A model generated the notes under the pieces. The model saw nothing but the letters and a program-made list of their open reading frames with translations, did not search any database and had not been told where the DNA came from. Shown here one piece after another: positions 2,266-15,075 of a stretch of DNA of 21,450 bases. The stretch comes from a virus. Every line of letters starts with the position of its first letter. Position 1 is the stretch's first letter. Position numbers and translations under genes: made by a program. The stretch is from the IMG/VR virus record IMGVR_UViG_3300020463_000171, positions 1-21,450 of that record; one strand, 5' to 3'.

Positions 2266-3537
2266 TTATCTACCGTATTTAATAATACCCATCAACTGGT
2301 TAATAGCGGCAAAAGTGCCAGTTAACTTGAATGTTTTACCATTGTATTTAAAGACCAGGCCTTCTGTTGGAATAATTGACTCAATACCACCAATACCTTC
2401 TAGTCTCTTTAATTCTTTTTCTACTTTGTCAATCTGTTTTAGATCTCCATTCTTTCTAACTTTATCTGCTTCAGATCTGATTTGCTTATGTAATCTTGCT
2501 TTCTCAGCTTCTGGATTAGCAGCAACAAAATTAGAAACGTTCTTTAAAACATCTGCACCTAATTCTAAAAATAGGTTCTCGAAAGGTAGAATGTTCTCTT
2601 TATACTTCTTGTTTCTTTGACCATCAAAATCTTTGACAGCTTTTGCTTGTTCTGGAGTAACTGCCTTCTTTAACTCTCTCATATTTAGAGTCTTCTTGTC
2701 TAAATATGCCCATCTTAATAGAAGTCCTTCTTTTAATGCCGGGTCTAAATCTGCAAAGTTCTCTTCGATTTGGTTTCTCCACCAAGCCTCGTGATACATT
2801 TTAACCTCATCTTGATCTGATAGACTATAAGTATCTCTTAGTTTATTTATCGCCTTTTCGTAATAGCCGACTCTCTCATCAAAGTTAATGTCTTTTCCTA
2901 TCTTTAAAATTTGAGGGGGAATTATTGTAAATGTTTTACCAATATCAGCTTTTAACTCTCTTAGTGCTTTTACAATATCAGATGCTAAATTCTCTTCACC
3001 AATGATATTACCATTACCATCAGTAACTTTCATACCGTGGAATTGAATAACATCTCTGTCATAGTAAATTACATTAGGGTTTTTAGAGTAAATTAACTCC
3101 ATGTTGATAAAAGACTTACCGTCTTGGAATACAGATTGGTCCTTGAGCTTTGGGAGCGCATCTGCTAGATCTTTAGCAGCAAAGATGAATGTTTCTTCAA
3201 CCAGCTTAGAAGCGTGGCCAGTGAACATCTTAATGATACCGTTTAGGTCGAGTGGATTAGCTAATTGTCCCTTATTTCTAGCAAACATAGCCTTACCATC
3301 CTTTACAGTTGCAAATACATTCTGACCATCTGTCTTTTCAGTTGGAGACTCTTCAAAATCAAGACCTCCCTGTAGAGCAGAATTCACAATTCTCTTAAAG
3401 TCAGCAAATGTAAGTGAGTTATCATCGAATGGGTGCATCATGTGTCCTGCAGCTCCACCCTCAAATACGAAGTTCTCCAAGCTATCCGCCTGGAGTTCTT
3501 CATTTATGAAATCTGTAAAGTTATAGTATATCTTCAT
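2266..3537 (-). CDS. Ligase-like covalent nucleotidyltransferase, probably head-packaged
   Basis: The 423-residue protein has the main motifs of the DNA/RNA ligase and capping-enzyme superfamily: motif I K68-T-D-G, motif III FINMELIY with E147, IQFHGM near 164-169, motif IV TEGLVFK at 391-397, and motif V KTFKLTG at 401-407. About 220 mostly charged, helical residues separate the central motifs from motif IV, far more than in Rnl1, Rnl2 or small DNA ligases. The N-terminus, MKIYYNFTDFINEE, resembles the T4 capsid-targeting peptide with an I-N-E sequence suited to prohead-protease cleavage. This suggests packaging and injection as for T4 Alt, but it remains inference. It lies between the acidic core-like protein gene (19 bases) and the ligase/NMNAT fusion gene (9 bases). 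It could instead be a structural protein that reuses the fold, although the catalytic lysine and glutamates are kept. Confidence 0.82.
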   Translation of the reverse strand: MKIYYNFTDFINEELQADSLENFVFEGGAAGHMMHPFDDNSLTFADFKRIVNSALQGGLDFEESPTEKTDGQNVFATVKDGKAMFARNKGQLANPLDLNGIIKMFTGHASKLVEETFIFAAKDLADALPKLKDQSVFQDGKSFINMELIYSKNPNVIYYDRDVIQFHGMKVTDGNGNIIGEENLASDIVKALRELKADIGKTFTIIPPQILKIGKDINFDERVGYYEKAINKLRDTYSLSDQDEVKMYHEAWWRNQIEENFADLDPALKEGLLLRWAYLDKKTLNMRELKKAVTPEQAKAVKDFDGQRNKKYKENILPFENLFLELGADVLKNVSNFVAANPEAEKARLHKQIRSEADKVRKNGDLKQIDKVEKELKRLEGIGGIESIIPTEGLVFKYNGKTFKLTGTFAAINQLMGIIKYGR

Positions 3538-3556: not shown

Positions 3557-5230
3557 TTATCCTAGTGATGATTGTAATGCGCCAACTGCTGCACCATAGT
3601 CATCGCCGTGTTTGTCTAATAAACCGTCTACTACTTCTTGAGCTTTTTCTTCGTCGAATTTATCACCGAAAGCTTTTCCTAAAACTGAGAAAGCATACTC
3701 TTTAAAATCTTCATCAGACTTTACTTCAGCTTCATTTACTTCTGGAGCTTCTACTGTATCTGCTTCTTCAACTTCTTCTTTTTCTTCTTCAGCTGGAACT
3801 TCTTCTTCAGACTCTTCTTCCTCATCATCTTCTTTTTCAACTTCGATTTCATAATCGCCGTCTACTTTGATTTCGATTTCATCTTCAGTTACTTCTTCCT
3901 CTTTAACTTCAATACCTTCTTCTTCGGCATATTCTTCTGCGTTCTCTTTATCATCTGCGTCTACACCTTCTACATCATATTCTTCATCGCCAACCTTGAA
4001 TTTATCATCACCTTTAGCGATAGCCTCTGCTCTTGCAGCACCGAATGCATTTCCTTCTTCAACTTCTTCCTCTTCTTTTGTTAGAGGGAATGTCTTACCG
4101 TTGAATTCAAATTCATCAGCACCTTCTTCCATTGCTTTAGCTCTTGCTGAAAAGAATGCGTTACCTTCATTAACTATTGCTTCGTTTTGGTAAATTAAAT
4201 TGAAAGCATCTACTATTTTCTGAGCATGTTTGCTTAATCCCCATCCATCTAAATAAAGTGCAATACCCTCAACGATACCAATACCTGACCATCCAGCTGC
4301 GCTAGATATTTTGACGTAGTTATCATCTAAGAATCTCTTGATTGTCTTAGCACCTACTGGAAGTTCCATACCTCCTAGATTCTCTACTTTAATCATCACT
4401 GTTCTAATCTTACCGCCTAGTGCCTTTCCTACGGGTTCAATGTAAGAATGGAAGTTAGCGTCTTGTAGTGCTTCCATAAGTAAATACTTGATTGCACCTA
4501 GGTGAGTAGTTTCATCTCCAGTTAGAGCTGAACCTTCAATCATAATACCTTCTAAAGTCTTAGCAACTTTCTTTGCGTCTTTTACATTACCTCTAGATGG
4601 TACGAATTTTTCGTTAATAACAAGGTGTTCGAAAGCTGGTTTTAATTCTCTTGGCTCAGCATAAGTATCTGCCATATACCATTTGCCATCTCTTTCGTCA
4701 TATAGGTAGACATATTCTGCGCCACCATCATACTCAGCATTTTTGATATACTTTGCAACATCCTTTGCGTCGCCTTTCATTGTAACTTTATCTCCGTAGA
4801 ATTCTATTTCAGAAAACTTTGGTTTCAAGTAAGAGGCACCTCCTTTCTTAAGAATGTTCTTAACTGCACCAACATTCATGTAACTCTTCTTGATAACAGG
4901 TAACATGTGGTCTGGATAGCCATCATAGTGCATATACACTGATTCGATTTTTCCTCTCTTGTTGATAATACCGATTTGAGAACGTGTACCTTCTTCAATA
5001 ATAGCAATTGATTCGCTAATCTCTGAAGCACCTAATTTTCTATAGAAAGAGTTTCTATCTTCTTCGTTTAGGTCTTTTATAGAAGTTACACCAAATTCGG
5101 CTAATAATGTTTTAAATTGATCTGCTGCTTTATTTCTTGCAGCGCTTTGTTCTTCCTCTAATTTCAGAGTAGCGGCTTTTACACTAGCTGTTGTGAAATC
5201 TTCAAAAGATTTTAGTTTTAATGAACCCAT
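3557..5230 (-). CDS. Acidic prohead core-like protein with HYDGYP domain
   Basis: The protein has 557 residues. The N-terminus (LKLKSFEDFTTA) resembles capsid-targeting peptides. Residues 80-200 match a domain I have seen in many phage proteins of unknown function, marked by RSQIGIIN, VYMHYDGYPDH (99-108) and a later WYMADTYAEP. INE and VNE tripeptides at 205-207, 353-355 and 498-500 could be prohead-protease sites. Two imperfect copies of a GNAF...A...G...F repeat occupy 356-383 and 393-420. Residues 384-505 are a long Glu/Asp-rich tract. A short helical domain ends the protein (508-557). An acidic, repeatedly cleavable protein with a targeting peptide would fit a prohead core or scaffold component, comparable in role to T4 gp22 or internal proteins. 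I see no direct homology to gp22. It follows uvsW after 36 bases that contain a promoter-like motif. Confidence 0.8.
   Translation of the reverse strand: MGSLKLKSFEDFTTASVKAATLKLEEEQSAARNKAADQFKTLLAEFGVTSIKDLNEEDRNSFYRKLGASEISESIAIIEEGTRSQIGIINKRGKIESVYMHYDGYPDHMLPVIKKSYMNVGAVKNILKKGGASYLKPKFSEIEFYGDKVTMKGDAKDVAKYIKNAEYDGGAEYVYLYDERDGKWYMADTYAEPRELKPAFEHLVINEKFVPSRGNVKDAKKVAKTLEGIMIEGSALTGDETTHLGAIKYLLMEALQDANFHSYIEPVGKALGGKIRTVMIKVENLGGMELPVGAKTIKRFLDDNYVKISSAAGWSGIGIVEGIALYLDGWGLSKHAQKIVDAFNLIYQNEAIVNEGNAFFSARAKAMEEGADEFEFNGKTFPLTKEEEEVEEGNAFGAARAEAIAKGDDKFKVGDEEYDVEGVDADDKENAEEYAEEEGIEVKEEEVTEDEIEIKVDGDYEIEVEKEDDEEEESEEEVPAEEEKEEVEEADTVEAPEVNEAEVKSDEDFKEYAFSVLGKAFGDKFDEEKAQEVVDGLLDKHGDDYGAAVGALQSSLG
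3971..4165 (-). repeat. Two-copy GNAF...A...G...F protein repeat
   Basis: Two 28-residue units (encoded at 4082-4165 and 3971-4054) share the pattern GNAF-x(2)-AR-A-x-A-x(3)-G-x-D-x-F-x(5)-x-[FY]-x-[LV]. They start 37 residues apart, and each is preceded by Glu-rich sequence. The copies differ at many codons, so this is an old protein-level duplication, not a recent DNA duplication. Short modules of this type occur at the C-terminal ends of phage structural proteins. Their function is unknown to me. Confidence 0.7.
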
Positions 5231-10540: not shown

Positions 10541-11239
10541 TCAGTTTGGCAATTTTCCCTCGAGTTGAGTTAGCAAGTAATGGTTAAGAAACCAAGCGTC
10601 GACTAGGTCATCAAAAGGCTTCGGAACTTTTTTCACCTCGCCAATCTCAGAAACACAATACTTATATAGCGGAGTCTTAGCTAACTCAGGAGATTCGCAA
10701 ACATTATTTAAGAACGCAGTCCAGAGTGCGGCTTTATTCATATTACCTTTTCCAGCATGTTTCTTAATTGTAGTCGGAGCAACAGTTAGAATATCTTTGA
10801 CATCTAGCAGTTCCATCATTTGATGTTTTAAGATTGCAGCGCCTGCTGCCATGTCGATAATGTTATTTGTTCCCATCTTTGAACCGTAAGATGAGCCCTC
10901 GAAAGCAATATAATAATCTTTTGTCTCTCCAATTATATTGACTATTTCAGAGATAATGTCTGAAGCCATCTCTCTGTATCTTTTGATTTTTGCGAACTCG
11001 TTCTTAGAGTAATCACCAAATTTTGTTTTCCAATCTGGTTGGTGGAATAGAGTTACGTCTGAGAATGTAGAAATTTCTTCTTGACGTTTTTGTTCGGCTT
11101 TTGTGCCGGTACCAGCTTTAAGATATGAGATGAACTGATATTCATTTGTATCAGATGTCCAAATACAGATACCAGGGGAATTAAGCGAGAAGTCAACTGT
11201 TACTAAATTCAAATTAGATTCTTTTACCCATTGCAGCAC
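10541..11239 (-). CDS. RuvC-like Holliday junction resolvase
   Basis: The 232-residue protein has an RNase H-fold nuclease layout of the RuvC type. The first acidic residue is D16 in VTVDFSLNSPGICIW, the second is E114 in IAFEGSSYGS, and the last pair is D211 and D214 in PFDDLVDAWFLNHYLL, a DxxD spacing like D138 and D141 of E. coli RuvC. APTTIKKHAGKGNMNKAAL at 154-172 resembles the RuvC segment before the last acidic pair. It would cut branched DNA, a role served by endonuclease VII (gp49) in T4. The start at 11239 overlaps the end of the preceding gene by 26 bases, so translation is probably coupled. It is the last gene of the leftward structural block. A related RNase H-fold nuclease with another substrate remains possible. 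Confidence 0.85.
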   Translation of the reverse strand: MLQWVKESNLNLVTVDFSLNSPGICIWTSDTNEYQFISYLKAGTGTKAEQKRQEEISTFSDVTLFHQPDWKTKFGDYSKNEFAKIKRYREMASDIISEIVNIIGETKDYYIAFEGSSYGSKMGTNNIIDMAAGAAILKHQMMELLDVKDILTVAPTTIKKHAGKGNMNKAALWTAFLNNVCESPELAKTPLYKYCVSEIGEVKKVPKPFDDLVDAWFLNHYLLTQLEGKLPN

Positions 11240-11582
11240 CTAGGGCAGCGCCAACTAAACGGGAGGTTAATAAATCGTAGAAGATACCTTTCTGAATACC
11301 AAGTACTTTAGCAACCATCTTACCCATAGATTTTCCTAGCGCGAAACCAGTTAAACCACCGATAATAGAACCTAGAAGGCCTTCATTTACTATATCTTCT
11401 TCAAGTCTATCTAAATCGAAAGAGCCATCTTCATTTTGATATTGTTGTACGAACTCTTCTAGAGCTGTATCAACTTTTTTCTCTAATTCAGGAGTCCATT
11501 CAGATTCTAAACCCTCTTGTAAGAGTTTTATATCCGTGTCCGTGATTTTAGCTTCAACTAAGTATTCATTAAATGTTTTCAT
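11214..11582 (-). CDS. Head-targeted glycine-zipper membrane protein
   Basis: The 122-residue protein begins MKTFNEYLVEA, matching the T4 internal-protein capsid-targeting peptide (MKTYQEFIAEA) at identical or similar residues in nearly all of eleven positions, including the L-x-E that fits gp21-type cleavage. Residues 12-66 are acidic and helical, with LQE at 21-23 and VNE at 65-67 as further possible cleavage sites. Residues 68-95 and 100-120 are two hydrophobic helices with small-residue spacing (GLLGSIIGGLTGFALGKSMG; LVGAALGAAMGK), a glycine-zipper pattern suited to membrane insertion. Cleavage after VNE67 would release a membrane-active fragment. It may be a packaged protein that acts at the cell envelope during DNA entry. 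The gene sits between the tail-tube-like gene and the resolvase gene, which it overlaps. Confidence 0.82.
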   Translation of the reverse strand: MKTFNEYLVEAKITDTDIKLLQEGLESEWTPELEKKVDTALEEFVQQYQNEDGSFDLDRLEEDIVNEGLLGSIIGGLTGFALGKSMGKMVAKVLGIQKGIFYDLLTSRLVGAALGAAMGKRI

Positions 11583-11596
11583 AATGTATATATCTT

Positions 11597-12148
11597 TTAA
11601 TCTATTTCCATTCTTAAGTTAAACTTATTGTAGAAGAAGTTGACTTCAAAAGTAGCGAAGTCAGCAACATTTTCTGCCATATTAAGATTTAACTCGTTGA
11701 TTGAATTCATAATTATTTTCTCGAATTGCATAAAAGCAACCGATGAACCTTCAGCATCTAGAATTCTAAGAGTCATAGGTTCAATATAAGGTTGTTTAGT
11801 AGTTCTAGCATAATAGTAGAGTAGAGTGTCTGTCATAATCCAATAATTAATAAAACCATCTAATAACTGCATAGTTACCGTGAATTCTCTTTGGACTGTG
11901 TTTTGAATTGGCACTGCACCTCTGTGATACCTAGTTGTACCGTCATTATCTGCTTGAGTAACTGGGTCAAAACTTATACCTGGAATACTTACACCTTGAA
12001 TTGAGTAATTAATAAAGTCAATTGGTTCTGCTAATAGATTACCAGGTACTTTGTTTAAATACTTCTTGTATTTCTCAGCTACTTCCTCAGGGATAAAACC
12101 TCTAGGAAATCTAAAATCGTATGAATTGTTTCTGCTATTTAAAATCAT
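11597..12148 (-). CDS. Tail-tube-like virion protein
   Basis: The 183-residue protein has no membrane segment and looks beta-rich. The part from about residue 85 on (REFTVTMQLLDGFINYWIM, then MTLRILDAEGSSVAFMQFEK, and finally FATFEVNFFYNKFNLRM) follows the general pattern of phage tail-tube proteins of the gp19 kind: a strand with an aromatic N-Y-W segment, a middle hairpin and a final strand ending in F-x-V-x-F-x-Y. T4 gp19 has 163 residues. The start codon overlaps the stop codon of the 704-residue gene (TAATG), so translation is coupled. A baseplate or tail-completion protein with the same fold is an equal possibility, and I give the tube assignment only moderate weight. Confidence 0.78.
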   Translation of the reverse strand: MILNSRNNSYDFRFPRGFIPEEVAEKYKKYLNKVPGNLLAEPIDFINYSIQGVSIPGISFDPVTQADNDGTTRYHRGAVPIQNTVQREFTVTMQLLDGFINYWIMTDTLLYYYARTTKQPYIEPMTLRILDAEGSSVAFMQFEKIIMNSINELNLNMAENVADFATFEVNFFYNKFNLRMEID

Positions 12149-14265: not shown

Positions 14266-15075
14266 TTAAAATTGTAAAAATTTAGGAGACCAGTATAGAC
14301 CAACGCCAAGCGAAGGACCTGTACTAATTACCTGGTTATTATTTAAGTTAACACCATATCCAACACCAAAACCGATTAACCATCTAGATTTCTTCTGTTC
14401 CTGTCTGTTTAGTCTAGTGTTGACTAAATTTATATTTTCAATATCCTTAATCACTAACCCTGGGTATGAAGTAGATAATTTAAGTCTATCTGCTCCGTCT
14501 TCACCCTCTTCAATCGCAGCCATCAGGCTTAGAGTTTGCTTTAATTCAAATTGTGTATTCAAGACTTGGAATTGTCCAAAGTCGTATTTTACCGTCGAGA
14601 ACCCAGATAAAATTCTTGAGTTGCCATTACCAAAATCTTTCGCTGAATTGAAATTAATTTTAGTAGTAACAGAATCTATCGCTGCAGTGTTCGTCGTTAC
14701 GTCCAGGCTATCTTTAATCTCTAACTCTGCAGAAATCAATGAGTTAACCTGTTTCAAATCTTTATTTAACGCGAGTGCCTTTCGGTACTTCTTTGTTAAA
14801 TTCTCCTGACTCTCTTCAAGCTTTGATAGATCGAACTCAAAGGATCTGATCTCAGCTAGCTGATCGCCATTCTCATTTCTTAGTACTGTAACAGAATCTT
14901 GTGCTGCCTTATAGTTATTTAAACTTCTATCGGCATCCTCTTGTGCAAATTTCACATCTTGTTTAAGATTAGAGATCTGGTTACACTGTCTAAGAAAGAG
15001 CATAACGAAAAGAGCTCCAGCAATAAATGTTACTAGAGTCTTATTCGAGAGTATGTTTTTTATTTTGTCTTTCAT
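14266..15075 (-). CDS. Membrane-anchored coiled-coil protein with glycine-rich C-terminal hairpin
   Basis: The 269-residue protein has a short basic N-terminus, one transmembrane helix at about 13-29 (TLVTFIAGALFVMLFL), a long coiled coil from about 34 to 120, a polar middle part, and two amphipathic, glycine-rich strands at the end (WLIGFGVGYGV, then GPSLGVGLYWSPKFLQF) that finish with Phe. The layout suggests an inner-membrane anchor, a periplasm-spanning rod and a C-terminal end like the final strands of outer-membrane proteins, which also end with an aromatic residue. A spanin-like lysis role is therefore conceivable, although the orientation differs from lambda Rz/Rz1 and from single-protein spanins. 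It sits unexpectedly among virion genes. It could instead be a tail-associated protein. Confidence 0.8.
   Translation of the reverse strand: MKDKIKNILSNKTLVTFIAGALFVMLFLRQCNQISNLKQDVKFAQEDADRSLNNYKAAQDSVTVLRNENGDQLAEIRSFEFDLSKLEESQENLTKKYRKALALNKDLKQVNSLISAELEIKDSLDVTTNTAAIDSVTTKINFNSAKDFGNGNSRILSGFSTVKYDFGQFQVLNTQFELKQTLSLMAAIEEGEDGADRLKLSTSYPGLVIKDIENINLVNTRLNRQEQKKSRWLIGFGVGYGVNLNNNQVISTGPSLGVGLYWSPKFLQF

Follow-up and report, generated by a model that had tools for sequence, protein, structure and literature searches.

The window, a 21,450-nucleotide viral fragment (21 kb), belongs to a large clade of T4-like giant phages. It encodes T4-type replication proteins (SSB, UvsW), a RuvC-like resolvase, a tail tube protein and large genes that are baseplate- or fibre-like by position and composition only. 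Comparison of the window proteins with the T4 ORFs by phmmer recovered matches to UvsW, primase and SSB only, and no tRNA or Rfam RNA was found in the window. The gene of interest here, established by ORF calling, occupies 11214..11582 on the minus strand (122 codons plus stop); the plus-strand reading of the same interval is full of stops. It lies directly downstream of the gene for the tail tube protein (11597..12148, minus strand, phrog_45) and directly upstream of the gene for the RuvC-like resolvase (10541..11212, minus strand, phrog_159), and we term its product GZ, for a putative glycine-zipper head-targeted protein. The RuvC-like gene probably begins at the TTG at 11212, just past the GZ stop, rather than at the upstream GTG at 11239 (window 11210-11239, minus strand); its homologues start with MNLVTVDF. 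Our best guess for the host of the clade, extrapolating from Lak and Prevotella, is Bacteroidota.

The GZ protein (122 aa; MKTFNEYLVEAKITD...EEDIVNEGLLGSIIGGLTGFALGKSMGKMVAKVLGIQKGIFYDLLTSRLVGAALGAAMGKRI) starts with MKTFNEYLVEA and is divisible into three parts. Residues 1-10 (MKTFNEYLVE; 11553..11582, minus strand) resemble a capsid-targeting peptide with an L-x-E cleavage motif at its end. Residues 11-67 (11382..11552, minus strand) form a linker with a low-confidence helix prediction, whose acidic character, remarked upon in the first-pass annotation, is borne out by a computed net charge of -13. Residues 68-122 (11217..11381, minus strand) constitute a Gly-rich C-terminal domain with a net charge of +6 and a near-invariant LLTSR motif, the best-conserved stretch of the protein. 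Two further candidate prohead-protease sites lie within the linker, namely LQE at residues 21-23 followed by G24 (11514..11522, minus strand), and the VNE that had been pointed out earlier and is indeed present in the translation at residues 65-67, followed by G68 at the start of the Gly-rich domain (11382..11390, minus strand). Searches against PHROGs and Pfam placed GZ in no family above the cut-offs, and a PDB sequence search with the GZ profile returned chance matches only.

We recovered 55 distinct homologues of GZ, and confirmed relatives are encoded on at least 528 stretches of viral contigs. The homologue in the 462-kb LR756500 genome is 50% identical, a conservation comparable to that of the tail tube protein (47%) and SSB (45%) between the same two phages. 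Among loci that extend far enough to tell, the tail tube gene immediately precedes that of GZ in 105 of 121, and the RuvC-like gene immediately follows it in 119 of 119. Its conservation, similar to that of the tail tube protein and SSB, and its place in one fixed operon suggest that GZ is a core protein of assembly or ejection. The internal proteins of T4, by contrast, are fast-evolving and variable, and hence GZ more likely serves head assembly or DNA delivery in some general way than anti-restriction. The gene is placed in the tail operon, outside the head cluster, and its position immediately downstream of the tail tube gene could be taken to mean that GZ is an accessory of the tail or tail tube, acting in tube assembly or in the lumen, with a convergently acquired T4-like N-terminus. 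However, as the next gene codes for a RuvC nuclease, the operonic neighbours are not all tail genes; moreover, the homologue in Lak is encoded about 4 kb from the protease gene, and the N-terminal peptide is common to 27 other families, including proteins encoded beside the prohead protease. We therefore regard a tail function as very unlikely.

The C-terminal domain is the only part of GZ clearly common to Lak megaphages and gut relatives. The Lak homologue (108 aa, L060:11863-12189, Lak-C1) shares with GZ the Gly-rich domain, the E|G boundary and the LLTSR motif, but differs in having no recognisable targeting peptide and in its gene neighbourhood, where the gene about 4 kb away encodes an S77 protease and there is no adjoining tail tube gene. 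Certain gut contigs that encode the C-terminal domain alone have been binned as Clostridia (homologues at L230:6001-6168 and L231:4494-4664). S77 protease genes are present in both of these assemblies, which suggests that the contigs are misbinned phage; in the latter, the protease gene is on the same contig as the GZ homologue, with a gp23-like gene nearby.

The N-terminus of GZ had been likened to a T4 peptide, MKTYQEFIAEA, and the T4 record does have this peptide on two proteins, at 65.4-66.4 kb. In T4 IPIII, residues 4 and 7 were mapped as determinants of targeting and residues 8 and 10 as those of processing, and gp21 cuts after L/I-x-E (PMC9026906). The GZ peptide agrees with MKTYQEFIAEA at these four residues and conforms to the N-terminal pattern MK-T-[FY]-x-x-[FY]-[IL]-x-E of the capsid-targeting sequences of IPI, IPII and IPIII. 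The form FxxYLxE is retained in 48 of the 55 distinct homologues; where the N-terminus is alignable, F4, Y7 and L8 are each present in 50 of 50 and E10 in 48 of 50, with free variation at residues 6, 11 and 12. Thus, like a capsid-targeting sequence, the family combines aromatic residues at positions 4 and 7 (50 alignable sequences) with the processing motif I/L8-x-E10 (L8 50/50, E10 48/50). E10 is absent from two relatives (L056 and L057), and in the LR756500 homologue the motif is at residues 17-23. The resemblance is confined to the peptide, as phmmer against the T4 ORFs detected no homology of the GZ body to IPI-III. We also observed that T4 gp61.1 (L146:18966-19130), an uncharacterised protein of 54 aa, starts with MKTFKEFIKED, an exact fit to the targeting and processing motif; it is possibly an overlooked T4 internal protein.

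We then counted the motif [FY]xx[FY][ILV]xE at the N-termini of mechanical longest-ORF gene calls, with internal positions and shuffled N-termini as controls. In ten kin sequences, most of which are fragments, this yielded 65 tagged proteins with 28 unrelated body families, against approximately 3.6 expected from the shuffles; the number of families is given beside that of proteins because orthologues are present in more than one of the ten. Every genome of the window clade shows N-terminal enrichment of the motif (observed versus shuffle mean: 8 versus 0.3 in G001, 5 versus 0.1 in G004, 8 versus 0.5 in G013 and 21 versus 1.9 in LR756500), which mostly starts at residue 4 or 7; C-terminal copies show no enrichment. 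One and the same peptide is therefore found, above chance, on several unrelated proteins of a single genome, as is characteristic of a capsid-targeting sequence. Applied to T4, the motif finds the known MKTYQEFIAEA pair, and among 514 RaK2 proteins it finds none; the expectation that RaK2-like jumbo phages carry the tag was thus wrong, and RaK2 serves as a negative control. Together, these two outcomes indicate that the signal is specific to the clade. Among the 115 proteins of a partial Lak genome, a single instance was observed, with no clear enrichment. A scan of viral contigs with the tag pattern, which was too narrow, matched contigs of one sample only, including a 429-kb relative of LR756500.

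In LR756500 itself (L059/L092-L116, e.g. L092:11706-14282 and L108:9909-13720), roughly 21-27 proteins bear an N-terminal MKYIKEYEEF[IL]xE-like peptide, often in clusters and on bodies that are mostly unrelated. The tags on unrelated bodies employ differing synonymous codons, which argues that selection acts on the peptide and not on the DNA. The situation parallels that of the T4 internal proteins in that one tag is found on many unrelated bodies and an S77 protease is encoded by the kin genomes. It departs from it in that the GZ body is related to no T4 protein and is conserved and syntenic rather than fast-evolving, in the possible additional cuts in the long acidic linker of GZ, and in the sheer number of tagged proteins, 21 in one kin genome. 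A search of the literature available to us found no such tag described in giant phages beyond T4, phiKZ and SPN3US.

Two other genes of the window illustrate the kinds of proteins so marked. The first (2266..3537, minus strand) codes for a 423-aa protein starting with MKIYYNFTDFINE, which we assign as an RNA-ligase-like nucleotidyltransferase on the basis of its KTDGxN and EGLVFK motifs with invariant columns; its Foldseek matches are weak and nearly all to RNA or DNA ligases. A strict tag is present in 36 of its 44 distinct relatives, which keep the four key residues and vary in linker length, and residues 1-33 are modelled by AlphaFold with low confidence, apart from the body. As the tag is kept in most relatives, this ligase-like enzyme may be carried in the phage head. 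The second (3557..5230, minus strand) codes for an acidic protein of 557 aa with a phrog_1987 domain and a variant tag (MGSLKLKSFEDFTTAS...), the SFxxF stretch of which recurs in kin. Its N-terminal KSFEDFTTAS resembles KTFKEFTSTT of the IPI-type targeting peptide of T4 (MKTFKEFTSTTT), and the T4 record has a 95-aa protein with this start, which we take to be internal protein I. Near these two genes, the minus-strand gene at 397-2256 codes for a protein of 619 aa that combines a ligase-like KIDGSS motif at the N-terminus with a cytidylyltransferase/NMN-adenylyltransferase-like domain at the C-terminus and has the appearance of an RNA-repair enzyme fused to an NAD enzyme.

Across the kin sequences, the tagged cargo includes the RNA-ligase-like protein, a PNK-type 3'-phosphatase, leucine-rich repeats, one DUF2201 metallopeptidase/VWA protein and R2K/RimK-like ATP-grasp ligases; in LR756500, the leucine-rich repeat, PNK 3'-phosphatase and metallopeptidase/VWA bodies are all represented. 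The recurrence of the same signal on 28 unrelated families suggests that phages of this clade pack an entire suite of proteins into their heads. Since some of these proteins are enzymes (ligase-like, 3'-phosphatase, ATP-grasp) and no obvious head proteins, the peptide could instead sort proteins to a destination outside the prohead, for instance a replication compartment or the membrane. We consider this quite unlikely, as the peptide matches the T4 determinants exactly, ends in a protease motif and is found on genes of the interval between portal and protease.

The protease that a targeting peptide of this kind calls for is encoded by the relatives: PF03420, the S77 (T4 gp21-type) prohead protease, was detected in LR756500, Lak and six longer kin contigs, while none was found in the 21-kb window fragment, which stops short of that region. 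In G001 and G003, genes for small tagged proteins lie between a portal-like gene and the protease gene; we take the former to be the portal, and the position corresponds to that of the core genes 67 and 68 in T4. At the start of the gp23-type capsid proteins, the kin have INE|A or INE|S and I-x-E stretches, which is what substrates of the protease should show. GZ offers LVE10, which fits the L/I-x-E rule of T4. LQE23|G fits this rule better than VNE67; E23 is invariant in an alignment that includes Lak, and 53 of the 55 homologues have [LIVMF]xE[GSNA] somewhere in the stretch from residue 13 to residue 40, a count that is partly expected by chance in an E-rich linker. The dipeptide E67|G68 is invariant, even in Lak. 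Nevertheless, although P1 is always E, P3 is occupied by V in the window protein and by T in 22 of the 55 homologues, so that the gp21 rule (P3 = L/I, P1 = E) does not predict a cut there, and E67|G68 may equally be a structural turn. Of the proteolysis proposed in the first-pass annotation, cleavage after LVE10 is thus well supported by the conserved T4 determinants, the 28 tagged families, the tagged genes next to that of the prohead protease and the S77 protease of the kin, whereas the cut at VNE67 appears weak.

An invariant E|G exactly at the border of the linker and the Gly-rich domain also accords with a different proposal, under which GZ would be an assembly factor of the prohead core that is never injected: the tag would bind it to the core, the Gly-rich hairpin would oligomerise or tether the growing prohead to the membrane, and cleavage by the protease would free the head. 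That GZ is a single conserved core gene and no variable effector is in keeping with this, yet the core proteins of T4 are mostly degraded and lost, whereas the C-terminal domain is the best conserved part of GZ. T4 heads do nucleate on the inner membrane (PMC5694885), which speaks for such a role. On balance, we view it as rather unlikely.

The C-terminal domain had been described as two glycine-zipper hydrophobic helices. Its Gly-rich nature stands, and the first helix shares Gly-rich spacing with Pfam Gly-zipper_Omp (PF13488) and related 2TM zippers. However, GZ falls below the curated cut-offs of the zipper models (20.6 versus 25 bits for Gly-zipper_Omp; 14.8 versus 24.2 and 13.3 versus 28.9 for others) and differs in its own LLTSR signature and its Lys residues. 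The helices are only weakly hydrophobic, with a Kyte-Doolittle maximum of 1.42 over 19 residues (1.88 in the relative L057). A simple insertion-energy sum, not position-dependent, gives about +4.9 and +6.5 for the two, versus +0.1 for the TM segment of the protein encoded at 14266-15075 in the window. AlphaFold models of the family (18 sequences) reached a pLDDT of 48 and, being unusable, were kept out of the fold search. With such poor TM segments and models, the suggestion that the released piece inserts into the membrane and helps DNA across is so far unsupported. A plain TM hairpin is likewise not supported, an oligomer or a binder of DNA or membrane surfaces being equally possible, and a membrane role of any kind appears doubtful. 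The zipper-like helices and sub-threshold Pfam matches might mark an ordinary membrane protein that acts in lysis or superinfection exclusion and resembles the T4 peptide at its N-terminus by chance; but the weakness of the TM segments, the retention of the tag in 48 of 55 homologues and its genome-wide enrichment make this highly improbable.

Hence, we favour targeting of GZ to the head with N-terminal cleavage after LVE10, to which we assign a probability of roughly two in three. The idea that a T4-type peptide takes GZ to the prohead, already voiced on first inspection, is strengthened by the conservation of residues 4, 7, 8 and 10, the non-chance reuse of the tag, the S77 protease of the kin and the tagged genes between portal and protease. 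We propose that GZ is a late core component of the head in this clade, whose first ten residues would act like the T4 capsid-targeting sequence and bring it into the prohead core. The S77 prohead protease would then cut after LVE10, with further cleavage of the acidic linker being probable (at LQE23, perhaps at VNE67), and the basic Gly-rich C-terminal piece would stay in the mature head. This piece would most likely exit with the DNA and have the cell envelope or the entering DNA as its site of action; ejection is a possibility to which we give nearly even weight, and its mode of action, as a membrane hairpin or an oligomer, is a guess. The tag, its conservation and genome-wide reuse, the protease of the kin and the fixed operon are documented here; packaging, cleavage and ejection are inferred. 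A precedent is gp47 of the phiKZ-like giant phage SPN3US, an ejection protein bearing an N-terminal propeptide thought to target it to the prohead, with a hydrophobic TM segment in the mature part, which is considered to be ejected (PMC5694885). It differs in that no sequence relation to GZ has been shown, several SPN3US propeptides exceed 100 residues, and the protease motif of that phage group is of another type.

More broadly, we tentatively posit that the clade employs the T4-style peptide as an all-purpose loading tag, by which an enlarged and exchangeable cargo (some 21-27 proteins in a 462-kb genome) is packed along with a universally conserved Gly-rich delivery protein, amounting to a ready-made counter-defence and RNA-repair kit that is injected. 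Previously, the T4 targeting sequence had been recognised on a few small internal proteins. If it is indeed a general loading tag across giant phages, the injected proteome of hundreds of uncultured viruses would be readable from sequence alone, with the list of tagged cargo as a testable prediction of it, and very large capsids could be loaded with proteins by means of the peptide. GZ itself represents one defined candidate for a factor in DNA entry or head assembly throughout the clade. Were the proposal true, RNA-repair-like and protein-modifying enzymes would enter together with the DNA instead of having to be expressed first, and early counter-defence would have to be pictured differently.
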